From: Streptosporangiaceae bacterium
GTDB taxonomy: Bacteria > Actinomycetota > Actinomycetes > Streptosporangiales > Streptosporangiaceae
Reading direction: 5' to 3'
NCBI GenBank assembly: GCA_030040475.1
Contig: JASHTQ010000145.1
Location: 1-11,879 of the forward strand
Length of the DNA: 11,879 bases
Of this stretch, positions 1,346-11,806 are shown one piece after another. The translations under genes were made by a program, and so were the position numbers. A model generated the notes under the pieces. The model was not told where the DNA came from and made no database searches. It saw only the letters and a program-made list of their open reading frames with translations. Position 1 is the stretch's first letter, and every line of letters begins with the position of its first letter.

Positions 1346-1402
1346 GTGCCGCCGCCAGGGTTCCGCTCAGCCGGCGGAACAATGCTTACCTGGCGGCGGC
1401 AC
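1346..1402. terminator. Large bulged hairpin at the convergent gene junction
   Basis: Arm 1346-1359 (GTGCCGCCGCCAGG) is perfectly complementary to 1389-1402. Nested inside, GTTCCGC (1360-1366) pairs with GCGGAAC (1374-1380) around a 7-base loop. The result is a 21-bp stem interrupted only by an 8-base bulge (1381-1388). It lies between two converging genes and includes the amine oxidase stop codon (1367-1369) and its last 11 codons. No T-tract follows on either strand, which is common for actinobacterial terminators. A bidirectional terminator or 3'-end stabiliser is the likely role. Confidence 0.65.
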
Positions 1403-3289
1403 GTCCAGCGTTGGGTTGCGGTCGAAGAAGCCGGTGGGCTTGAGCGTGAAGCCGCAGTGCGCGACCGGCATGACCGGCCAGTCCTCCGGGCGGGGCCAGT
1501 GCGTCGGGCCGAAGGTGTGCCAGACGACGATGTCCGTGCCGTCGATGTCCTTATCCTCCGCGATGAAGGCGGGGATCCCGGCTCCGCCCGGGTTCTGGTT
1601 CACGAAGTCGCCAGCCGGATAGCGGTGGGCCGGGTCGTACCTGGTGACCCAGAGGTGGTTGGTCGCGAAGGCGGCCCGGGCGGACAGCGGGGCGGCGGGA
1701 TCGGCGAGCAGGACCGGCGCGGACTCCGGGTAGAGCGTGTAGCCGACCGGGCGGCCGAACCTGTTCTCGTGCTCGGTGCTGATGATCCGCCAGGTCCGGC
1801 CGCGGGAGCCGTCGGCGCGCCGGCCCGCCTGCGACTCGCGGGTCAGCCGGGTCACCGTCTGCGCGATGGCGTTGCCGTGCGGGTTGTCCGGCCCGATCGG
1901 CAGGCCGCCGACGTCCACCTCCTCGACCGCGTTGGCCAGCCCGTCCACGGTCACGTCCAGCCGGGCGCTGAACAGGTGCTGGTGCACGGCCGCGGCCAGG
2001 CCGGGCGCGACCTCGGTGGAGTAGACGTGCTCGCCGCCCGGATGAGCCTGGGTGAACAGCACCCCGGTCATCTTGACCTCGTGCTCGATCGTGCCGTCCA
2101 GGTAGAAGTACCAGTAGAAGCCGTAGTCGTAGTTGCCGACGGTGGTGAAGTACGACACCACGAGCCTGCGCTGGCGGCGCGACTGGGCCGAGCCGTTGAA
2201 GATGTCCGTGTGCTTCCACAGGATGCCGAAATCCTCCTCGTGGATGCAGATCGCGTTCGGGATCGTGCGCGGCTGGCCCGCGTCGTCGGTCACGGTCGCG
2301 TCCAGGTAGGCGATCTCGCCCAGGCAGTCGCAGCCGAGCTCGAGGGAGTTGGCGAACTTCCCGCACAGGTACTCCCCCGTGTCGAAGTAGGCCTGCCAGT
2401 AGCGGAACTGCGGGTCGCCGTAGGGGACGACCATCTCGGGGATCGATGCCCGGTAGATCACCGGGCGCTGCTGCAGGCTGATCTGGTGCAGGGTCAGCCC
2501 CTCGCGGGCGTCGAAGCCGATCCGCATCGACCAGTCCTGCCAGCGCAGCAAGTGCCCGTCCAGGGTGAAGCTCGGGCCTTCGGGCTGGGTGATCTCGATG
2601 GGCCGCAGCGTGCTGCGGTGCGGGCCGCGCACCGCCTCGTCGTCGTAGTCGCCGGACTCGGCAGGAACCGGCAGCTCGAACTCGTCGATGATCGTGAAGA
2701 CCTTCTTCTCGACCAGGTCGACATAGGCGGCGATGCCGTCGACCGGATGCGCCCAGGCCAGGTCGTGCTCCCGCGCCTGGACGAAGGTGAGCACCCGCAC
2801 CATCCGCCGCCTGTCGTCCTCGGCGGGCCCGAACACGCCCGCGGTGAGCGGGCAGACCCGGAGCTGGCCGAGATCCGTCAGGCCGCGCCGGGCCATGGCG
2901 GCGCGCCAGTCCGGGTCCGCCTTGACGATCTCGTCCACGGCCACGAAGTCGCCGTCGATGATCGGCAGCTGCCCGTCGGCGGGCGGGTCCAGCCTGCGCG
3001 CGCTAACCACCTTCCGGTCGGTCAGCGAGACCACGGCGTCGGTCGACTCGCCGGTGCCGGCGTTGAGCAGGAACGCGCGCAGCCGGCGATCGGTGACCGC
3101 GTCGCCGAGGACGTCGTCCTTCGGCGGTTCCTCAAGGCCGTAGTAGGCGAACCTGGTCGGCTCGGCCAGCAGCCCGGCGGCGGCCAGGATCTCCCGCCCG
3201 GCCAGGTACTCGGCGGCGGTGGCCGGTGCCAGCGGATGCGGGCGGTGCTCGCGCGAGGTCTGGGTCTCGTGGACGGCGGTGTCGGTCAT
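1367..3289 (-). CDS. Copper-containing primary amine oxidase (TPQ enzyme)
   Basis: A 640-residue copper amine oxidase, the length expected for bacterial members such as the Arthrobacter globiformis enzyme. It oxidises a primary amine to an aldehyde with release of NH3 and H2O2. The topaquinone precursor is Y387 in the signature GNYDYG (385-390). The copper ligands are H436 and H438 (HQH) plus H611 in PVAHCGF. The catalytic base is D303 in YFDTGEY (301-307). N-terminal N2/N3 domains precede the large beta-sandwich catalytic domain. There is no signal peptide, so H2O2 would be made in the cytoplasm, and no catalase is in view. The ATG at 3289 is chosen because GGAG sits 9 bases upstream; the frame stays open further upstream only as antisense of the permease gene. 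It is last in the unit after the dehydrogenase and permease genes. The amine (aromatic, aliphatic or polyamine) cannot be told from sequence. Confidence 0.95.
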   Translation of the reverse strand: MTDTAVHETQTSREHRPHPLAPATAAEYLAGREILAAAGLLAEPTRFAYYGLEEPPKDDVLGDAVTDRRLRAFLLNAGTGESTDAVVSLTDRKVVSARRLDPPADGQLPIIDGDFVAVDEIVKADPDWRAAMARRGLTDLGQLRVCPLTAGVFGPAEDDRRRMVRVLTFVQAREHDLAWAHPVDGIAAYVDLVEKKVFTIIDEFELPVPAESGDYDDEAVRGPHRSTLRPIEITQPEGPSFTLDGHLLRWQDWSMRIGFDAREGLTLHQISLQQRPVIYRASIPEMVVPYGDPQFRYWQAYFDTGEYLCGKFANSLELGCDCLGEIAYLDATVTDDAGQPRTIPNAICIHEEDFGILWKHTDIFNGSAQSRRQRRLVVSYFTTVGNYDYGFYWYFYLDGTIEHEVKMTGVLFTQAHPGGEHVYSTEVAPGLAAAVHQHLFSARLDVTVDGLANAVEEVDVGGLPIGPDNPHGNAIAQTVTRLTRESQAGRRADGSRGRTWRIISTEHENRFGRPVGYTLYPESAPVLLADPAAPLSARAAFATNHLWVTRYDPAHRYPAGDFVNQNPGGAGIPAFIAEDKDIDGTDIVVWHTFGPTHWPRPEDWPVMPVAHCGFTLKPTGFFDRNPTLDVPPPGKHCSAG

Positions 3290-3330
3290 TTTAAAAATCT
3301 CCAAGATTATTCCGAACGGGCCGTGGTGCT

Positions 3331-3399: not shown

Positions 3400-4863
3400 T
3401 TATTCGTCGGCGATGATCGAGCCGACCCGGTCGCCGAGGCTGGGGTCGCGCTTGACCAGCCAGATGGCGTAGACGACCGAGACCACGATGACGCCAAGGG
3501 CGGCGTACGGGAACCAGTCGTAGGGGTTGGGCTGCGGCGGCTTGCACAGGTAGTAGACCGGGACGGCGATCGCGGCCATGCCGAGCACCGGCAGCACGAC
3601 GTGCTTGATGACGTTGAACTCTTGCGGCCGGTACTTGCGGTAGTAGAACGGCAGCGCCAGGTTGGCCAGGAAGTACACGACCAGGATCAGGATCGTGCCC
3701 ATCGTGCCGGATTCGTCGAAGTAGTTCAGCGCGCTCAGGCTGTTGCCGTGGCCGCCGGCCCAGTGGCCGATCGCCCAGCCGAGGACGATCACCGAGGCGA
3801 CGGCGACGAAGGTGATGATCGCGTAGATCGGCGTCCGGCGGACTGGCTGCACGTAGCCGATGAAGCGCGGCAGCAGGCCCTCGCGGCCGGCGTTGAAGAT
3901 CAGCCGGCACTGCGAGTTCACCGCGGCGATGAGCACGCCCAGGGTAGAGGTCAGCCCGGCGCAGTAGGCGATGAACGCCAGCCAGGCCACGATGCCGTGC
4001 ACAGCCGTGATGAACGGGATGAGCGGAGCCGCGAGCGCCGACCCGTTGTCGTGGAAGGCGCTGACCGTGGAGTAGGCGACCAGGAGGTACGTGACCGCCA
4101 TGATCGCGATCGACAGGAATACGGCTCTGGGCACGTTGCGCCGCGGGTTGCCGGTCTCCTCGGCCAGCGCCGCCGAGTTCTCCCAGCCGATGAACAGGTA
4201 GACGGCCAGCGGGAAGCCGGCGGCCAGGCCGCTGAACCCATTGGTGATATGGCCGGGGTCGAACGGCGCACCGGACAGGTGACCGCCGTTCTTGATCAGC
4301 ATGGCCACCGACCCGATCAGCAGCACCAGCATCTCGAAACCGAAGAAGAAGCCGGCCAGCTTGGTCGACACCGCCACGCCGCGGAACATCATGACCATGG
4401 CGCCGGCCGTGAAGGCCGCGGAGAAGATGATCCAGGGGATGGCCACGTTGAAGTAGTACTGCAGCATGATCGACAGGAACCCGCCGGAGATGACGAGCAC
4501 CGACGAGATCGCGATGATGTACCCGGCCCCGCACAGCAGCGCCGTGGTTACCGCGCTGGTGCCGCCGAACGTCTTGCCGACGAAGGTGATGAAGCCGCCG
4601 GTCGACGGGTGAGCCCGGGAGAACTGCGAGAGCGTGTTGCCGAGCAGTGCGATGGCGACGATGGCGGCGACGATCGTCAGCGGGGCGGCAATACCCGCCG
4701 TCACCACGATCAGACCGAAGCTGAAGTAGAAGCTGTACGCCGGGCCGATGTTGGCCATCGTCGAGGCGGAGATGTCGATCAGCCTGAGCGCCCCACGGTG
4801 CAATCGCTCGGGAGATTCAGGCGACTTAGTTTCGGTGAACGGAACGGGTGCCGCTTCGCTCAT
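3400..4863 (-). CDS. APC superfamily amino acid/amine permease
   Basis: A 487-residue, very hydrophobic inner-membrane protein with about twelve predicted transmembrane helices, the first near residues 44-75 and the last near 450-470. A short polar N-terminal tail precedes RGALRLIDISASTMANIGPAYSF, the usual start of the APC fold. The segment GWENSAALAEETGNPRRNVPRAV (226-248, TM6 and the following loop) is the family's hallmark. It should be a secondary transporter for an amino acid, polyamine or amine, probably driven by protons or exchange. GGGAG lies 7 bases before the ATG. The gene starts 35 bases after the aldehyde dehydrogenase stop and precedes the amine oxidase gene, so its likely cargo is the amine substrate of that oxidase. 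Substrate specificity cannot be read from sequence. Confidence 0.9.
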   Translation of the reverse strand: MSEAAPVPFTETKSPESPERLHRGALRLIDISASTMANIGPAYSFYFSFGLIVVTAGIAAPLTIVAAIVAIALLGNTLSQFSRAHPSTGGFITFVGKTFGGTSAVTTALLCGAGYIIAISSVLVISGGFLSIMLQYYFNVAIPWIIFSAAFTAGAMVMMFRGVAVSTKLAGFFFGFEMLVLLIGSVAMLIKNGGHLSGAPFDPGHITNGFSGLAAGFPLAVYLFIGWENSAALAEETGNPRRNVPRAVFLSIAIMAVTYLLVAYSTVSAFHDNGSALAAPLIPFITAVHGIVAWLAFIAYCAGLTSTLGVLIAAVNSQCRLIFNAGREGLLPRFIGYVQPVRRTPIYAIITFVAVASVIVLGWAIGHWAGGHGNSLSALNYFDESGTMGTILILVVYFLANLALPFYYRKYRPQEFNVIKHVVLPVLGMAAIAVPVYYLCKPPQPNPYDWFPYAALGVIVVSVVYAIWLVKRDPSLGDRVGSIIADE

Positions 4864-4898: not shown

Positions 4899-6362
4899 TT
4901 AGTAGGGATAATGCGCGGGGCCGGGGTTAACGGTCAACCAGCGGCGTTCGGTGAACTCCTCGATGTTGGAATCACCGCCTGACCTGCCGCCCAAACCCGA
5001 CTGTCCGATCCCGCCGAACGGCGCCAGCGCCTCATCCTGCGGCGTTGCGTCGTTCACGTGCACCATCCCGGCCCGCAGCCGCCGGGCCAGGCGCAGGCCG
5101 AGGTTCGGGTCGCCGGTCAGCACCGAGTCGACCAGGCCGTAGTTCGTGTCGTTGGCCACCGCGACCGCCTCGTCCGCGTCGTCGACCACGCTGACCGGCG
5201 CGATCGGCGCGAAGATCTCCTCGGTCCACAGCCGGGAGTCGCGGCTGACCTCGGCGACCACCGTGGGCCGGAAGAACGGCCCGTCGGTGGTACCGCCCGC
5301 CACGACCTTGGCTCCCTGGGCGACGGCCTCGTCCAGCAACTGCCGGGCCCGGTCCAGTTGGCGCGCGTTGATCATCGGGCCGAGGCCGACGTCCTCGGTG
5401 ACCGTGTTACCGACGGTGATCCGCTCCGCGCGGGCGGCCAGTGCCCTGGTGTAGGCCTCGGAGATCCCGCGCTGCACGATGTGCCGGCCAGCGGTGATGC
5501 AGGTCTGGCCCTGGTAGTGGAAGCTCGACCAGGCCCCGATCATCGCCGCCTGGTCCAGGTCGGCGTCGTCGAGGACGATCAGCGCGTTGTTGCCGCCGAG
5601 TTCCAGGGACACCTTCTTCAGGAGCTCGCCGGCGGTCCCGGCGATCTGCCGCCCCACCGCGGTCGACCCGGTGAAGTGGATCATTTTTACGTCAGGGTGG
5701 GCGACAAGCCGCTGGCCGACCTCGACGTCGCCGGGCAGCACGCTCAGGATGCCGGGTGGCAGCCCGGCGGCCTGGAACGATTCGGCGATGGCCAGCCCTC
5801 CGGACAACGGCGTCTCCGGGGACGGCTTGATCAGCACCGCGTTGCCAAGCGCGATCGCGGGCGCGATCACGCGCATGCCCAGGACGAGCGGGAAGTTCCA
5901 CGGAGTGATCACGCCGACCAGGCCGACCGGGATCCGCTCGGACAGCGAGAAGCGCCCGGCGTGGCCGGTGGGGAGCACTTCGCCGGTCGCGCGTGAGGCC
6001 AGCCCCGCCGCCTCGATCAGCTCGCTTTTCGCGGCGGAGATCTCGTAGTCGGCCTTCCCGCCGATGCAGCCGGTCTCGCGCATAATGAGCTCGCGGTACT
6101 GCTTGGCCCGGCCATCCAGGGCGGCCGCGACATCGCGGAGCAGGCCGGCGCGCTCGGCGTAGGTCCGCTCGGCCCAGTCCGGCTGGGCCTGCCGGGCCAC
6201 CGCGACGGCCTGGTCCACGTCGGACGGGCCGGCCAGCCCGGCGCTTGCGAAGACCTCGCCGGTGGCCTTGTCGCGCACGCCGATGGACCCGCCGCCCGCG
6301 GGCGGGCGGAACTCGCCGTCGACGAAGATCGCGCCCCGCCATTGACCTGGCTGCTTGAGCAC
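4899..6362 (-). CDS. NAD(P)-dependent aldehyde dehydrogenase, benzaldehyde/vanillin dehydrogenase-like
   Basis: A 487-residue ALDH superfamily enzyme of normal length, oxidising an aldehyde to a carboxylic acid. The oxyanion Asn is N156 in TPWNFP, the cofactor-binding Lys is K179 in IKPSPETP, the Rossmann turn is FTGSTAVG (230-237), the general base is E254 in LELGGNN, the nucleophile is C288 in QGQTCITAGRH, and E382 lies in EEIFAP. The QGQTCITAGRH context and the GGKADYEISAAKSEL region resemble benzaldehyde and vanillin dehydrogenases, which hints at aromatic aldehydes but is not decisive. A GTG start at 6362 is chosen because AGGAG precedes it by 5 bases and the protein then begins, as is usual, shortly before the IFVDGEF strand; an upstream extension of 27 residues is low-complexity. 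It is the first gene of the unit with the permease and amine oxidase and would consume the aldehyde the oxidase makes. Confidence 0.93.
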   Translation of the reverse strand: MLKQPGQWRGAIFVDGEFRPPAGGGSIGVRDKATGEVFASAGLAGPSDVDQAVAVARQAQPDWAERTYAERAGLLRDVAAALDGRAKQYRELIMRETGCIGGKADYEISAAKSELIEAAGLASRATGEVLPTGHAGRFSLSERIPVGLVGVITPWNFPLVLGMRVIAPAIALGNAVLIKPSPETPLSGGLAIAESFQAAGLPPGILSVLPGDVEVGQRLVAHPDVKMIHFTGSTAVGRQIAGTAGELLKKVSLELGGNNALIVLDDADLDQAAMIGAWSSFHYQGQTCITAGRHIVQRGISEAYTRALAARAERITVGNTVTEDVGLGPMINARQLDRARQLLDEAVAQGAKVVAGGTTDGPFFRPTVVAEVSRDSRLWTEEIFAPIAPVSVVDDADEAVAVANDTNYGLVDSVLTGDPNLGLRLARRLRAGMVHVNDATPQDEALAPFGGIGQSGLGGRSGGDSNIEEFTERRWLTVNPGPAHYPY

Positions 6363-6437: not shown

Positions 6438-6453
6438 TGGCAAGCGCTTTCCA
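6438..6453. promoter_or_regulatory. LacI-family operator for the amine-oxidation unit
   Basis: Read on the minus strand the site is TGGAAAGCGCTTGCCA, a palindrome with one mismatched pair and the central AAGCGCTT typical of LacI/GalR-family operators. It lies 75 bases upstream of the aldehyde dehydrogenase start and just downstream of the candidate promoter. It shares 12 of 16 bases with the second operator at 7613-7628. The adjacent LacI-type regulator is the obvious ligand. Confidence 0.7.
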
Positions 6454-6463
6454 ATTGCTGCGA

Positions 6464-6493
6464 AACGTACCTGATTGTGGCCATGGTGCGCAA
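6464..6493 (-). promoter_or_regulatory. Candidate promoter of the aldehyde dehydrogenase-permease-amine oxidase unit
   Basis: On the minus strand TTGCGC (6493-6488) and TACGTT (6469-6464) are separated by 18 bases and fit the actinobacterial TTGnnn/TAnnnT pattern. Transcription would start near 6457, immediately before the operator at 6453-6438, so a bound repressor would block initiation or clearance. The match is moderate and this is inference from position as much as from sequence. Confidence 0.4.
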
Positions 6494-6496
6494 GGG

Positions 6497-7558
6497 TCAG
6501 CTGGGCGGGCCGGTCGGCGGGGGCGGCAGCGTGCTGTCCCGCAGGATGACCTCGCCGGGGACTGGGATGACCCGTGGCTCGCCTGCGCTGCCCTCGGACA
6601 GGGTCAGGTTGGCGGCCATCTCCCCCATCTGCTTGAGCGGCAGCCGCACCGTGGTCAGCGGCGGGTACACGTCACGCAGGGTGAGGATGTCGTCGAACCC
6701 GGCCAGCGCGACGTCGGAGGGTACCGTGAGGCCGCCCGCCCGGAGCCGGGCGAGGGCGCCCAGGGCCATCACGTCGGTGACCGCGAAGACGCAGTCGGGC
6801 AACGGCTCGGCCGCCGCCAGGATGGCGCTCATGGCCTCGTAGCCGCCGTCTCTGGTGAATGCGCCGTGGATGACACGGGCCGGGTCGAGCGGCACCGACC
6901 AGGCGGCGAGCCCGGCGCGGAATCCGTCCAGCCGGTCGCTTGCCGTGAGCAGGCCGCGAGGGCCCGCGAGCACGGCGAAGCGGCGGTGCCCTAGCGCCAC
7001 CATCGCCCTGGCCAGGGCCTCGGCGCTCGCGGCGTTCTCCGGCAGGATCGTGTCCACGCCGAGCAGGTCCTGGCCGATACAGACGGCCCGGCCGCCTTGG
7101 CGGGTGAACGCGGCGATCTCCGCGCGCAGCGCGTCCCTGGCCGCCATGTCGTCGGTCCTGCTGCCGATCAGGATCACGGCGCGCGCCCGCTGGGCGCGCA
7201 TCAGCGCCACGTACTCACGCTCGGCCGTCTCGGTCGCCTTCGTGCTGGACATGCAGACCAGCAGGTTCCTGGAGTCGGCGACCTCGATCAGGCCGGCCGC
7301 GATCGTCGAGAAGTACGGGTCGGCGATGTCGTGCACGACCACGCCGACCATCGTGCTCTGCCCGGTGGCAACGGCCCTGGCCTGCAGGTTAGCCGTATAG
7401 CCGAGCTCGGCGGCCGCCTCGTGGACGCGATCGGCGAGGCGCCTGCCGACCCGGCGCGGGCCGTCGTTGACCGCCCGGGACGCGGTGGTCAGCGAGACGC
7501 CCGCGCGATCGGCGACGTCCTGCAGCGTTACCCTCGCGACCGGCCGACCCTGACCCAC
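6497..7558 (-). CDS. LacI-family transcriptional repressor
   Basis: A 353-residue regulator with the LacI architecture. The N-terminal helix-turn-helix is VTLQDVADRAGVSLTTASRA (10-29), followed by NDGPRRVGRRLADRV and the hinge helix near NLQARAVATG (57-66). The periplasmic-binding-protein-like effector domain starts at MVGVVVHDIADPYFS (70-84) and ends near residue 340. Such proteins usually bind a sugar, polyol or related metabolite and release DNA on binding it. The start is a GTG at 7558 with AGGAG 6 bases upstream. The gene is divergent from the plus-strand unit, and the operator at 7613-7628 lies between them, so autoregulation is likely. A second operator beyond its 3' end suggests that it also controls the amine-oxidation unit. 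The effector is unknown. Confidence 0.93.
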   Translation of the reverse strand: MGQGRPVARVTLQDVADRAGVSLTTASRAVNDGPRRVGRRLADRVHEAAAELGYTANLQARAVATGQSTMVGVVVHDIADPYFSTIAAGLIEVADSRNLLVCMSSTKATETAEREYVALMRAQRARAVILIGSRTDDMAARDALRAEIAAFTRQGGRAVCIGQDLLGVDTILPENAASAEALARAMVALGHRRFAVLAGPRGLLTASDRLDGFRAGLAAWSVPLDPARVIHGAFTRDGGYEAMSAILAAAEPLPDCVFAVTDVMALGALARLRAGGLTVPSDVALAGFDDILTLRDVYPPLTTVRLPLKQMGEMAANLTLSEGSAGEPRVIPVPGEVILRDSTLPPPPTGPPS

Positions 7559-7583
7559 TGGCCTCTCCTCATCGCGTCCGCGC

Positions 7584-7612
7584 TTGACGCTCTACCGGTC
7601 CGAACCTAGGCT
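7584..7612 (+). promoter_or_regulatory. Promoter of the four-gene plus-strand unit
   Basis: TTGACG (7584-7589) and TAGGCT (7607-7612) are separated by exactly 17 bases and closely match actinobacterial housekeeping sigma-factor promoters (TTGACn / TAGnnT). Transcription should start near 7619, inside the LacI-type operator, leaving a leader of about 58 bases before the ATG at 7677. Confidence 0.7.
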
Positions 7613-7628
7613 GGGAAAGCACTTTCCC
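7613..7628. promoter_or_regulatory. LacI-family operator overlapping the predicted transcription start
   Basis: GGGAAAGCACTTTCCC consists of perfect 7-base arms around a central CA. It abuts the -10 hexamer, lies 48 bases from the oxidoreductase ATG and 54 bases from the repressor start codon, so it is placed to repress the plus-strand unit and perhaps the repressor gene itself. It is closely related to the site at 6438-6453. Confidence 0.8.
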
Positions 7629-7676: not shown

Positions 7677-8828
7677 ATGACTCGGAAGATCATCCACGTG
7701 GCGGTGAACGGCGTCACCGGGCGGATGGGATACCGACAGCACCTGGTACGGTCGCTGCTCAGCATCCGCGAGCAGGGCGGCGTGCTGCTCGACGACGGCA
7801 CCATCGTCTACCCCGAGCCGATCCTGGTCGGGCGGAGCGAGGACCGGCTGCGGGCGATCGCCGAACGGCACGGGCTGGAACGCTGGACCACCAGCCTGGA
7901 CGAGGTGCTCGCCGACCCCGATGTCGAGGTGTACTTCGACACCCAGGTCACCGGCGTCCGCGAGGCCAGCCTGCTGAGGGCGATCGAGGCGGGCAAGCAC
8001 GTCTACACCGAGAAGCCGGTGGCCGAGTCGGTCGAGGGGGCGCTGCGGCTGGCCCGCGCCGCGCAGGCGGCCGGGATCACCCACGGCGTGGTGCACGACA
8101 AGCTGTTCCTGCCTGGCGTGATCAAGCTGCGGCGCCTGGTCAGCGAGGGCTTCTTCGGCCGGGTGCTGTCGGTGCGGCTGGAGTTCGGCTACTGGGTGTT
8201 CGAGGGGGACGTGATCCCGGCGCAGCGGCCGTCCTGGAACTACCGCGCCGAGCAGGGCGGCGGGATAGCGCTCGACATGTTCCCGCACTGGCAGTACCTG
8301 CTCACCGACCTGTTCGGGCCGATCGCGGCGCTGTACGCGAGGAACGTCACGCACCTGCCGCGGCGGTGGGACGAGTCCGGCCGCCCCTACGAGGCGACCG
8401 CGGACGACGCCGCGTACGCGGTGCTCGAGTTCGCCAGCGGTGCGCTCGCGTCGGTGAACTCGTCGTGGGCGGTGCGGGTCAATAGGCGCGAGCTGCTCGA
8501 ACTGCAGGTCGACGGGACCGGCGGCAGCGCGGTGGCGGGGCTGCGGAACTGCGCGGTGCAGCACCGGGTGAGCACGCCGATGCCGGTGTGGAACCCGGAC
8601 CTGCCGGACCCCATCGACTACCAGGCGCAGTGGAGCGACGTGCCGGACAACGCGAGCTTCGACAACGGGTTCAAGGTGGAGTGGGAACTGTTCTTGAAGA
8701 GCGTGGCCGAGGGCAGGCCGTTCGCCTGGAACCTGGCCGAGGGGGCCAGGGGGGTGCAGCTGGCCGACCTGGCACTGCGGTCGTCGGCCGAAGGCCGGCG
8801 GATCGACGTGCCGCCGCTGGACGTCTGA
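7677..8828 (+). CDS. Gfo/Idh/MocA-family NAD(P)-dependent oxidoreductase
   Basis: A 383-residue dehydrogenase of the family that includes inositol and glucose-fructose oxidoreductases. The N-terminal Rossmann domain begins IIHVAVNGVTGRMG (5-18). Its NGVTGRMG loop recalls the GxxGRMG loop of dihydrodipicolinate reductase more than the usual GxGxxG. The nicotinamide-side motif EKP is at 112-114. The C-terminal alpha/beta domain carries GGGIALDMFPHW (194-205), where D200 and H204 match the family's DxxxH catalytic pair. A carbohydrate-like alcohol is the expected substrate, oxidised to a ketone or lactone. The ATG at 7677 is chosen because GAGG precedes it closely and the Rossmann strand begins directly after; an ATG 93 bases upstream lies on the promoter. 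It is the first gene of the unit and the next GTG begins one base after its stop. Confidence 0.9.
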   Translation: MTRKIIHVAVNGVTGRMGYRQHLVRSLLSIREQGGVLLDDGTIVYPEPILVGRSEDRLRAIAERHGLERWTTSLDEVLADPDVEVYFDTQVTGVREASLLRAIEAGKHVYTEKPVAESVEGALRLARAAQAAGITHGVVHDKLFLPGVIKLRRLVSEGFFGRVLSVRLEFGYWVFEGDVIPAQRPSWNYRAEQGGGIALDMFPHWQYLLTDLFGPIAALYARNVTHLPRRWDESGRPYEATADDAAYAVLEFASGALASVNSSWAVRVNRRELLELQVDGTGGSAVAGLRNCAVQHRVSTPMPVWNPDLPDPIDYQAQWSDVPDNASFDNGFKVEWELFLKSVAEGRPFAWNLAEGARGVQLADLALRSSAEGRRIDVPPLDV

Positions 8829-8829
8829 G

Positions 8830-10065
8830 GTGACCGCGCAGATCGGGCTGCCCGGCCGTGCCGAGCCGCTGACCATTCCCGATCCTGGCTGGGCCGCCTG
8901 CTACCCGCCGCCGGTCTCCCGGCGGGTCTACGCGGCCGCCCACGTCGCCGCGCACCCAGGGGGCGAGGCCATCGACTGGGAGTCCACGATGCGCTTCCGC
9001 GATCATCTGTGGGCGCACGGCTTCGGCGTCGCCGAGGCGATGGACACCGCCCAGCGCGGCATGGGCCTGTCCTGGGAGCAGGCCAGCGAACTGATCGCCA
9101 GGTCGGCCGCGCGAGCAAGCCAACACGGAGCGAAACAGATCAGGTCGGATCGTGCGGGCGGAGGCGGCGAAGGGGCCGGCGGTCCAGGCGGCGGGAGTCC
9201 AGAGCGAGGAGAGCCGGGTGCCGCGGGGCTGGTTTGCGGGGTGGGGACCGATCAGCTCAGGGACGGAGAAAGGCATCCGATTGCGCGGATCATCTCCGCT
9301 TACCAGGAGCAGATGGCGGTGGTGCAGGCGGCCGGGGCGGGAGCCCGAGTGGTGCTGATGGCGAGCCGGGCGCTCGCGGCCAGCGCCCGGGGCGCGCGGG
9401 ATTACCTCGGCGTGTACGGGGAACTGCTGAGCCACGCCGAGCAGCCGGTGATCTTGCACTGGCTCGGCGAGGCCTTCGATCCGGCGCTGCGCGGGTACTG
9501 GGGCAGCGGCGAGTTCGGCGCTGCCGCGGACACGGTGCTCGAGCTGATCGACAGGGCAGGCGGGCGGGTGGACGGCGTCAAGCTGTCGGTGCTCGACGCG
9601 GGGCACGAGGTGGCGCTGCGCCGGCGGCTGCCGGCCGGGGTCCGGCTGTATACCGGGGACGACTTCGACTACGCCGACCTCATCCGCGGCGACGGTCACG
9701 GGCACAGTGACGCGCTGCTCGGCGCGTTCGCCGCGATTACGGGTCCGGCGGCGGCTGCGCTCGCGGCACTGGACCGGGGCGACCTGGCGGGGTACGACGC
9801 GGCGATCGCGCCGACCGTCCCGCTCAGCAGGCTGCTCTTCGAGCAGCCGACCTACCACTACAAGGTGGGCGTGGCGTTCCTGGCCTGGCTGAACGGGCTC
9901 CAGCCGCACTTCGCGATGCTGGGCGGGCTGGAGCGGCAGCGGCCGGCCGGGCACCTGATCCGGGTGTTCGAGATGGCGGCCGCGGCGCGGGCGCTTGCCG
10001 AGCCGGACCTCGCGGTGGAGCGGATGAACTGGCTGCTCGCCGGGCTCGGGGGTGAGGGAGCGTGA
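8830..10065 (+). CDS. DUF993 dihydrodipicolinate synthase-like TIM-barrel protein
   Basis: A 411-residue protein that I assign to the DUF993 family, annotated by homology to dihydrodipicolinate synthase/aldolase barrels. Recognisable parts are MRFRDHLWAHGFGVAEAMDT (54-73), CGVGTDQL (136-143), VVLMASRALA (174-183), VILHWLGEAF (207-216), VDGVKLSVLD (247-256) with K251 as the candidate Schiff-base Lys, and LYTGDDFDY (273-281). An aldolase or retro-aldol step on a sugar-derived keto compound is plausible, but no activity is established. About 35 residues (98-132), rich in Gly and charged residues, interrupt the barrel between RSAARAS and GLVCGVG; they look like a lineage-specific insertion. The GTG start lies one base after the oxidoreductase stop, implying translational coupling. 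The 3' end overlaps the next gene by 4 bases. Confidence 0.8.
   Translation: MTAQIGLPGRAEPLTIPDPGWAACYPPPVSRRVYAAAHVAAHPGGEAIDWESTMRFRDHLWAHGFGVAEAMDTAQRGMGLSWEQASELIARSAARASQHGAKQIRSDRAGGGGEGAGGPGGGSPERGEPGAAGLVCGVGTDQLRDGERHPIARIISAYQEQMAVVQAAGAGARVVLMASRALAASARGARDYLGVYGELLSHAEQPVILHWLGEAFDPALRGYWGSGEFGAAADTVLELIDRAGGRVDGVKLSVLDAGHEVALRRRLPAGVRLYTGDDFDYADLIRGDGHGHSDALLGAFAAITGPAAAALAALDRGDLAGYDAAIAPTVPLSRLLFEQPTYHYKVGVAFLAWLNGLQPHFAMLGGLERQRPAGHLIRVFEMAAAARALAEPDLAVERMNWLLAGLGGEGA
9121..9225 (+). other. Low-complexity in-frame insertion within the DUF993 gene
   Basis: These 105 bases encode residues 98-132, including the tract AGGGGEGAGGPGGGSPERGE. Codon third positions lose their usual strong G/C bias in the first third (CAA CAC GGA GCG AAA CAG), unlike the flanking coding sequence. 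The reading frame is kept, so the insertion is either a tolerated surface loop or remains of a small inserted element. The boundaries are set by my recollection of the family and are approximate. Confidence 0.45.
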
Positions 10066-10889
10066 TCGGGCTGGAGCGGCTGTCGCTGAATCAGGCGACG
10101 GTTAAGCACATCGGCCTGAAGGATGCCGTGGACCTGTGCGTGCGGCACGGCATCCCGGCGATCGGGCTGTGGCGGGATCGGGTCGCGGAAGCGGGGCTTG
10201 CCGAGTCGGCAGCGGCGGTTCGGGGCGCCGGGTTGCACGTGTCGAGTCTGTGCCGGGGCGGGTTCTTCACTTGCGCCGACGCGGAAGGACGGCGGGCGGC
10301 GCTTGAGGATAACCGGGCCGCGGTCGCCGAGGCGGCCGCGCTCGGGGCGGATGCGCTGGTCTTGGTGTGCGGGGGGCTGGTACCGGGGAGCCGGGACCTC
10401 GGGCTGGCCCGTCGTTTGGTCGCCGAGGCGATCGGCGAGCTGGTACCCGAGGCGCAGCGGCTGGGGGTCCGGCTGGGGATCGAGGCGCTGCACCCAATGT
10501 TCTGCGCCGACCGGTGCGTGATTTCCTCCCTGGGCGAGGCCGTGGACCTGGCCCTCGTGTTCCCTGCGGACGCGGTGGGGGTGGTGGTGGACACCTACCA
10601 CGTCTGGTGGGACGCGCGGCTGTGCGACCAGATCGCCCGCGCGGCCGGGCGGATCGTCAGCTACCAGGTCTGCGACTGGGTGCTGCCGCTGCCGCAGGAC
10701 GCGCTGCTCGGCCGCGGGCATCTCGGCGACGGCGTGATCGACTTCGGGGCGATCTCGGCCAGCGTGGCGGCGGCGGGTTACGACGGGTACGTCGAGGTCG
10801 AGATCTTCAACGCCGACGTCTGGGCCGCGCCGGCCGACGAGACGGCGGCCACCGTACGGGAGAGGTTCGCGATCGCGCTGGGCCAGTAG
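10062..10889 (+). CDS. Sugar phosphate isomerase/epimerase-like TIM-barrel protein (AP endonuclease 2 fold)
   Basis: A 275-residue xylose-isomerase-like barrel of the family including IolE, IolI and related isomerases. Likely metal ligands are E141 in GIEALHP, D177 with H180 in VVVDTYHVWWD, and E247 in YVEVEIF; H220 in GRGHLGDGVIDF is the expected active-site His. It probably isomerises, epimerises or dehydrates a keto sugar or polyol, presumably the oxidised product of the first enzyme. The GTG start overlaps the preceding TGA as GTGA (10062-10065), with a GGGAG just upstream, so translation is likely coupled. Its stop TAG overlaps the next GTG by one base. The exact reaction cannot be assigned. 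Confidence 0.85.
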   Translation: MIGLERLSLNQATVKHIGLKDAVDLCVRHGIPAIGLWRDRVAEAGLAESAAAVRGAGLHVSSLCRGGFFTCADAEGRRAALEDNRAAVAEAAALGADALVLVCGGLVPGSRDLGLARRLVAEAIGELVPEAQRLGVRLGIEALHPMFCADRCVISSLGEAVDLALVFPADAVGVVVDTYHVWWDARLCDQIARAAGRIVSYQVCDWVLPLPQDALLGRGHLGDGVIDFGAISASVAAAGYDGYVEVEIFNADVWAAPADETAATVRERFAIALGQ

Positions 10890-11806
10890 TGCGGTTCAAT
10901 CGTCTGATGGACGGGGTACGGGCGCCGGAGGAGGACTTCGACATCCCGGCGTTCTGCCGGGCGCTCGGGGTGCCGGGGCTGGCGGACGTGCACACCCATT
11001 TCCTCCCGCCGCGGATGCTGCGGCGGGTGTGGGAGTACTTTGACGCGGCCGGGCCGCTGGTCGGGGTCAGCTGGCCGATCCGGTACAGGTGGAGTGACGA
11101 GGAGCGGGTCGCGCACCTGCGGGGCATGGGGGTGCGGATGTTCAGCGCGCTCGCGTACGCGCACCGGCCGGGGATGGCCGCCGACCTGAACGCGTGGACG
11201 ATGGCGTTCGCGAAGGCCACGCCGGGATGCCTGGAGTCGGCGACGTTCTACCCGGAGCCCGGGGTGGCCGGGTACGTGCGCGACGCGCTGGCAGCGGGAG
11301 CGCGGATCTTCAAGCTCCACCTTCAGGTCGGCGGGTTCTCGCCGGGAGACCCCTTGCTCGACCCGGTGTGGGGGCTGCTTGCCGAGGCAGGGGTGCCAGT
11401 CGTGGTGCACGCGGGGCATGCGCCGGTGGGGAACGCGCACACCGGGCCGGGTCCCTTCGGCGAGGTGCTGGCGCGGTTTCCCAGCCTGCCAGCGATCGTC
11501 GCGCACATGGGGGCGCCGGACTACGAGGCGTTCCTGCGACTCGCCGGCCAGTACGAGCGGGTGGCGCTGGACACGACGATGATCTTCACCGACTTCTTCG
11601 ACGCGCTGGCTCCGTTTCCCGCGACGGCCCGGCCGCTGGTGCGCGAGCTCGGGCTGGCGGGCAAGGTGCTGCTCGGCAGCGACTTTCCCAACATCCCGTA
11701 CCCGTATGCCCGGCAGATCGCCGGGCTGGCCGGGCTGGAGCTCGGCGAGGCGTGGCTGCGCGCGGTGTGCTGGGAAAACCCGGTGGCGTTGTTCGGCGCT
11801 CCGTAA
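10889..11806 (+). CDS. Metal-dependent amidohydrolase family hydrolase
   Basis: A 305-residue TIM-barrel hydrolase of the Amidohydrolase_2 type. The metal-binding HxH is H35/H37 in ADVHTHFLPP, with further candidate ligands H174 (VVVHAGH), H206 (IVAHMGAP) and D265 (LLGSDFPN), in the order expected for the superfamily. Relatives hydrolyse lactones or cyclic amides or decarboxylate aromatic acids. In this unit a lactonase or C-N hydrolase step on a sugar-like intermediate is a reasonable guess. The GTG at 10889 shares one base with the previous stop (TAGTG), favouring coupled translation; an ATG at 10907 would shorten the protein by 6 residues and cannot be excluded, as neither has a good Shine-Dalgarno sequence. 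It is the last gene seen in the unit. Confidence 0.85.
   Translation: MRFNRLMDGVRAPEEDFDIPAFCRALGVPGLADVHTHFLPPRMLRRVWEYFDAAGPLVGVSWPIRYRWSDEERVAHLRGMGVRMFSALAYAHRPGMAADLNAWTMAFAKATPGCLESATFYPEPGVAGYVRDALAAGARIFKLHLQVGGFSPGDPLLDPVWGLLAEAGVPVVVHAGHAPVGNAHTGPGPFGEVLARFPSLPAIVAHMGAPDYEAFLRLAGQYERVALDTTMIFTDFFDALAPFPATARPLVRELGLAGKVLLGSDFPNIPYPYARQIAGLAGLELGEAWLRAVCWENPVALFGAP

Follow-up and report, generated by a model that had tools for sequence, protein, structure and literature searches.

Most members of the LacI family sense sugars, and the usual view of amine oxidases is that they degrade biogenic amines. In the main text of Ravcheev et al. 2014 (PMC4052901), local LacI regulons have few targets and an even palindrome, with a site before the regulator gene and sites placed 30-140 bp ahead of start codons; the family's palindromes generally have CG at the centre (1173 of 1303 regulators). 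Carbohydrate metabolism is controlled by 176 of the 182 groups with an assigned pathway, the exceptions named there being nucleosides, neotrehalosadiamine and purine/pyrimidine control, and no word starting with "amine" occurs in that main text. The enzyme pair of copper amine oxidase and aldehyde dehydrogenase (ALDH) is known from the tynA-feaB genes of E. coli, which are under FeaR, a regulator of the AraC family (PMC4640556). In B. subtilis, the frlBONMD operon (deglycase, kinase and ABC importer) frees an amine from a sugar (PMC12632257). Our searches of the open-access literature, from which subscription papers are mostly missing, found no LacI-family regulon with a copper amine oxidase, no paper on DUF993 and nothing for the combination of Amadori compounds, an amine oxidase operon and an SIS domain; PMC2991359, as far as its text was available, does not connect a LacI-family repressor with an amine oxidase.

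The locus analysed here seems to resemble the local LacI regulons in its predicted architecture and differs from them in that its predicted targets include amine oxidation genes. It shares the amine oxidase and ALDH with the E. coli system, from which it differs in having a LacI-type regulator with two predicted operators and a sugar-type unit that is seemingly co-regulated. The expectation of the first-pass annotation that amine oxidase operons are usually run by other regulator families agrees with FeaR, which is a single system.

The window, by which we mean the whole stretch of 11,879 nucleotides, carries on its minus strand a LacI-family regulator gene (6497-7558, 353 aa; lacI hereafter). 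Its product matches PF00356 (47.8 bits, cut-off 27) and PF13377 (105.1 bits, cut-off 26.5), that is, a LacI helix-turn-helix and a periplasmic-binding-protein-like sensor domain, and its C-terminus, RDSTLPPPPTGPPS, is a short proline-rich tail with no obvious extra helix. The same strand carries the amine unit, composed of an ALDH (~4899-6362, the GTG start at 6362 inferred from relatives), an APC-type amine/amino-acid permease (3400-4863) and a phenylethylamine-oxidase-type copper amine oxidase (~1367-3319, the start at 3319 inferred). The oxidase scores 511 bits against the catalytic domain PF01179, and its best solved relative is phenylethylamine oxidase (PDB 1rjo, 1av4) from Arthrobacter, with whose TIGNYD its own TVGNYD aligns (T-x-x-N-Y-D), a stretch that we take to be the TPQ cofactor motif. 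Beyond the oxidase lies a Peptidase A4 family protein (380-1297), a weak partial relative of which (36%) is found downstream of the oxidase in locus L001.

The plus strand encodes a Gfo/Idh/MocA oxidoreductase (7677-8828), whose best solved relative, 3oqb, is named only "Oxidoreductase", a DUF993 protein (8830-10065), which probably has a DapA/aldolase-like fold, a xylose-isomerase-like TIM-barrel epimerase/isomerase (AP_endonuc_2; 10062-10889) and an Amidohydro_2 family hydrolase (~10904-11806). The search of the ortholog loci, several of them cut off by the end of a short contig, gave no match to this fourth gene. A riboswitch or other RNA element in the window was considered and set aside, since no Rfam family matched at the gathering threshold.

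Two related palindromes on either side of lacI had been reported by the first-pass annotation, and both are read directly in the sequence. Site 1 (6438-6453; plus strand TGGCAAGCGCTTTCCA, operon strand, here minus, TGGAAAGCGCTTGCCA), the predicted operator of the amine unit, lies in the lacI-ALDH gap, 43 bp behind the lacI stop codon. Site 2 (7613-7628, plus strand, GGGAAAGCACTTTCCC), the predicted operator of the oxidoreductase unit and probably of lacI too, lies in the divergent lacI/oxidoreductase gap, about 55 bp before the lacI start. Seven of the eight pairs are complementary in each; the two have 12 of 16 bases in common and start 1175 bp apart. When the 11,879 bases were scanned with a 12-position core, at least 5 of 8 complementary pairs being required, three places had at least 9 core matches: the two sites (12 and 11) and one place with 9.

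A regulator search of 341 genomes from the family of Trebonia kvetii 15TR583 (G003, the genome of locus L003) gave a lacI match in 248, of which nine were taken as orthologs (~74-83% regulator identity). Five of the nine are also among the six real relatives that stand among the 80 loci listed from a scan of genome contigs, a scan that gave at least 80 matches; the other 74 loci listed (L007-L080, ~27-31% identity), being other LacI proteins, were left out. Both palindromes are present in all nine orthologous loci, where loss of the 6438-6453 palindrome had been named beforehand as evidence against a joint regulon. At site 1, the window and the nine orthologs agree in all 14 core bases (GGAAAGCGCTTGCC on the operon strand), and a palindrome stands at the place of site 2 in the same ten loci, overlapping the apparent lacI start codon in G005. 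Across these ten loci, which are related and whose counts are not independent, pairwise identity averages 0.94 at site 1 and 0.85 at site 2, compared with 0.27-0.47 in the flanking 16-bp blocks. When up to 316 bp round each site were dinucleotide-shuffled 2000 times, no region of the ten loci gave a match of at least 11 of 12 in more than 9 shuffles.

The two sites differ from each other in a consistent way. At site 1 the central bases are CG and position 13 is G in 10/10 loci; at site 2 the centre is CG in 1/10 and position 13 is G in none, so that nine of its ten copies depart from the CG-centred form usual in PMC4052901, as far as its main text goes. The difference suggests two affinities for one protein, which might bind the two sites unequally because their centres differ systematically. 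Six more distant loci (L117, L118, L119, L120, L122 and L124) have TG or AG in the middle of the palindrome that precedes lacI (AAAGTGTTTT, AAAGAGTTTT), not the usual CG.

Both sites stand directly behind promoter-like sequences. On the minus strand, a putative -35 box TTGCGC (6488-6493) and a putative -10 box TACGTT (6464-6469) would form the promoter of the amine unit, the -10 box lying 10 nt before site 1 in the window. All ten loci have TTGCG(C/T/G) upstream of site 1 with a spacer of 17-18 nt, and nine have TA(C/G/T)(G/T)TT, G337 carrying TATTTC at that place; the -10 box ends 9-12 nt before the site. The putative promoter of the oxidoreductase unit consists, on the plus strand, of TTGACG (-35, 7584-7589) and TAGGCT (-10, 7607-7612), and TTGAC(C/G), a 16-18 nt spacer and TANNCT ending 0-2 nt before site 2 recur on that strand in 8/10 loci, no such promoter being recognised in G005 and G051. 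Under a rule formulated after the contexts had been inspected, a -35/-10 pair just precedes site 1 in nine loci and site 2 in eight, compared with 9 of 5000 random positions in these loci; applied to the lacI strand, the same rule finds no promoter upstream of site 2 in any of the ten. Lying directly behind such pairs, the two sites are placed so that a repressor bound there would prevent transcription from starting.

The gene that follows site 1 varies. ALDH comes first in the window and in G004, and the permease in G002, G003, G005, G037, G051 and G211. In G001, the first intact gene is the permease, which stands behind a dehydrogenase remnant of 34 residues, and in G337 a 40-residue permease remnant precedes the oxidase; these remnants could be assembly faults. 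G337 (locus L112) shows DUF993 and the permease both shrunk to remnants of about 40 residues (3538-3654 and 6141-6254), with the operators, lacI and the oxidase kept, which reflects either real deletions or assembly faults. G004 has a 496-aa ORF (L004, 10609-12099) between lacI and the promoter-like sequence with site 1, which both stay before ALDH; by eye, its product is membrane-protein-like and presumably DUF2254-like. On the other side, the oxidoreductase was not seen beside site 2 in G001, where the contig ends, or in G037.

As controls we used 16 lacI homologues without an adjacent amine unit which, like the 12 further oxidase loci treated below, were hand-picked from longer lists and are not random samples. 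With a criterion of at least 10 of 12 core matches, none of the 16 has a palindrome within 400 bp downstream and 13 have one within 400 bp upstream. Two of them (G210 and G028) do possess an amine unit farther away, with other genes in between or on another contig. Site 1 is linked to the amine unit, and the proposal of the first-pass annotation, that one LacI-type regulator joins both units through two related sites, is supported by the presence of site 1 in all nine orthologous loci and by the lack of such a palindrome downstream of the 16 homologues.

The reading we prefer, with a probability of roughly 0.83, is that a local LacI-family repressor acting at two promoter operators controls the amine oxidation genes together with the oxidoreductase/DUF993/isomerase unit. 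The repressor encoded by lacI would bind both 6438-6453 and 7613-7628. At 7613-7628 it would cover the start region of the divergent oxidoreductase-DUF993-isomerase promoter, and probably also regulate lacI itself, because this site is only some 55 bp before the lacI start; at 6438-6453 it would sit close behind a second promoter, located in the gap that separates lacI from the amine unit. As long as no inducer is present, the repressor would keep both promoters blocked. The inducer, most likely a sugar-like compound or an intermediate of one of the pathways, would allow both units to be expressed.

A second LacI lineage has a similar arrangement. Amine oxidases of at least 69% identity occur in 12 of the 341 genomes, and a LacI-type palindrome precedes 11 of the units (those of the nine orthologs, G210 and G028). 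G210 and G028 each have one palindrome before ALDH-permease-oxidase and another in the lacI/oxidoreductase gap. A single G210 contig carries the oxidase, permease, ALDH, SIS, sugar ABC, kinase-like, ROK regulator and lacI genes and oxidoreductase-DUF993-isomerase; in G028 the two halves, amine unit and lacI/oxidoreductase part, are on different contigs. The oxidases of both genomes adjoin the window clade (98/97) in a midpoint-rooted oxidase tree, and their lacI genes fall in another part of the lacI tree. In two LacI lineages, amine units that are related to each other occur with a sugar-type module of the same kind. Which protein binds which palindrome in G210 and G028 is less clear, because the palindromes within either genome differ outside a AAGCGCTT core and have only that core in common.

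The further claim of the first-pass annotation, that the two enzyme sets work on one substrate, is weaker. It is plausible, with indirect support from the clustering of both units, and we put the chance that both sets act on one compound at about even. It is weakened by G064, which has kept the permease and oxidase and has no close regulator, no palindrome and no DUF993. A slightly less probable alternative is a shared regulator with separate substrates, the amine unit having been recruited under a sugar-sensing LacI protein, for example for nitrogen supply or by-product clean-up. The state of G064 fits such independence, as does the spread of the genes, DUF993 being found in 245 of the 341 genomes and the oxidase, at 69% identity or more, in only 12. 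In G073, moreover, the oxidase cluster and the lacI-oxidoreductase-DUF993-isomerase module are on different contigs, with no palindrome of at least 11 matches at the oxidase cluster. The separate-substrate reading has to contend, however, with the recurrence of the pairing on one G210 contig under a lacI of another subclade and with the sugar-type genes that accompany half of the 12 oxidase loci outside the nine orthologs. The G064 oxidase, too, falls inside the coupled clade of the oxidase tree (100/99), and its state therefore looks like a loss.

Those 12 loci fall into two equal groups: six (L165, L166, L167, L169, L170 and L171) have SIS, BadF-type kinase-like and sugar ABC genes, and six are without this set. 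No palindrome with at least 11 matches is listed in the nine loci of more distant oxidases (L160-L168, G073 included). SIS, kinase-like and sugar ABC genes beside the amine oxidases of some distant relatives recall the B. subtilis frl operon (PMC12632257). The window differs from frl in that no such genes were found among the nine window proteins scanned or in the loci of the nine orthologs, and a Frl/Fra-type Amadori pathway was rejected for the window locus, no SIS or kinase-like match having been obtained there. A Frl-type assignment was also rejected for the distant oxidase clusters, whose SIS proteins match GlmS and glucosamine-6-phosphate deaminase better than FrlB; their kinase-like and SIS proteins have weak, below-cut-off matches to aminosugar families (NagK, GlmS, NagB-II). 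In L165, L166, L167 and L171, the neighbours of the distant copper amine oxidases include GntR-type or ROK regulators as well as the SIS, kinase-like and sugar ABC genes, possibly an undescribed catabolic cluster of their own.

It is also conceivable, and in our estimate unlikely, that site 1 serves another LacI-family regulator as operator and merely resembles site 2. Palindromes of this kind are generic for the LacI family in the main text of PMC4052901, and the consistent difference between the sites in the centre and at position 13 would fit two regulators. Such an origin sits poorly, however, with the presence of site 1 beside the window-type regulator in 10/10 loci and its absence behind the 16 other homologues; in G064, where no close lacI relative was found, site 1 is missing as well.

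Genome scans for further sites, which the first-pass annotation had proposed, gave an answer that depends on the pattern. The strict pattern GGMAAGNNCTTKCC, with no mismatch allowed, occurs at 26 places in the genomes of the nine orthologs, 18 of which are the two local sites, and the reversed-pattern control at 20; one of the extra places (G005) lies inside the oxidoreductase gene. No further strict-pattern sites in these nine genomes rise above the control, which speaks against a different regulator. The looser pattern GGNAAGCRCTTTCC, with at most one mismatch, both strands summed and local sites included, exceeded its control in all six genomes scanned: 9 vs 1 matches in G001, 18 vs 3 in G002, 25 vs 7 in G003, 17 vs 0 in G004, 18 vs 10 in G005 and, a very large excess, 323 vs 6 in G006. 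This excess, which lends the different regulator some weight, may represent sites of other LacI-family proteins or further members of the regulon. The count in the distant G006 (Amycolatopsis bartoniae, L006) might point to a global LacI-type regulator with a similar motif.

A repression loop between the two sites through a tetramer, raised by the first-pass annotation, is improbable enough that we rejected it. Two predicted operators of one regulator do lie about 1.2-1.4 kb apart in 9/10 loci, but the spacing is not conserved over the ten (1162-2864 bp) and the tail of the regulator offers no obvious C-terminal helix; nor is a loop needed, because each operator has its own promoter-like sequence in most loci. 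That site 1 is a chance palindrome or part of the lacI terminator, as its position so close behind the lacI stop codon might suggest, was dismissed, since at most 6 of 2000 shuffles of any site-1 region reach 11 of 12 (and one shuffle only, in G337, reaches 12), the sequence and not pairing alone is conserved, and in G004 the site lies ~1.7 kb from lacI.

In the plus-strand unit, the DUF993 protein matches 4dnh, a solved relative whose function is not known (49% identity), and more weakly DapA and sialic-acid lyases; the mean pLDDT of the model is 57.7, and weight is placed only on the 4dnh match. The DapA/NAL aldolase superfamily is marked by a TIM barrel that bears a lysine, and in DUF993 lysine 251 is invariant across 35 sequences. 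The DUF993 ORF of the window has a glycine-rich stretch at about residues 105-132, largely absent from the family consensus, which could have arisen by expansion or by two frameshifts that compensate each other.

The sugar ABC, kinase-like and SIS genes beside some distant amine oxidases suggest a sugar-amine compound, which is our best guess for the substrate. We offer only tentatively the idea that both units form one undescribed pathway for such a compound; candidates are amines that are glycosylated or of Amadori type, and amino sugars bearing a CH2-NH2 group. Induction of the LacI repressor would come from the sugar-like part or from the whole conjugate. The amine part would be imported by the permease and burned by the copper amine oxidase and ALDH, and the sugar part by the oxidoreductase, the DUF993 aldolase and the isomerase.

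The locus would represent a LacI-family regulon with an unusual pair of targets, and the sharing of the regulon is well supported by comparison of the related loci. If true, this conserved two-operator regulon in a group of soil actinobacteria would help in approaching DUF993 and its oxidoreductase, both uncharacterised proteins, and in finding the substrate that these amine oxidases have in the cell, since whatever induces the repressor is probably a substrate or an intermediate.
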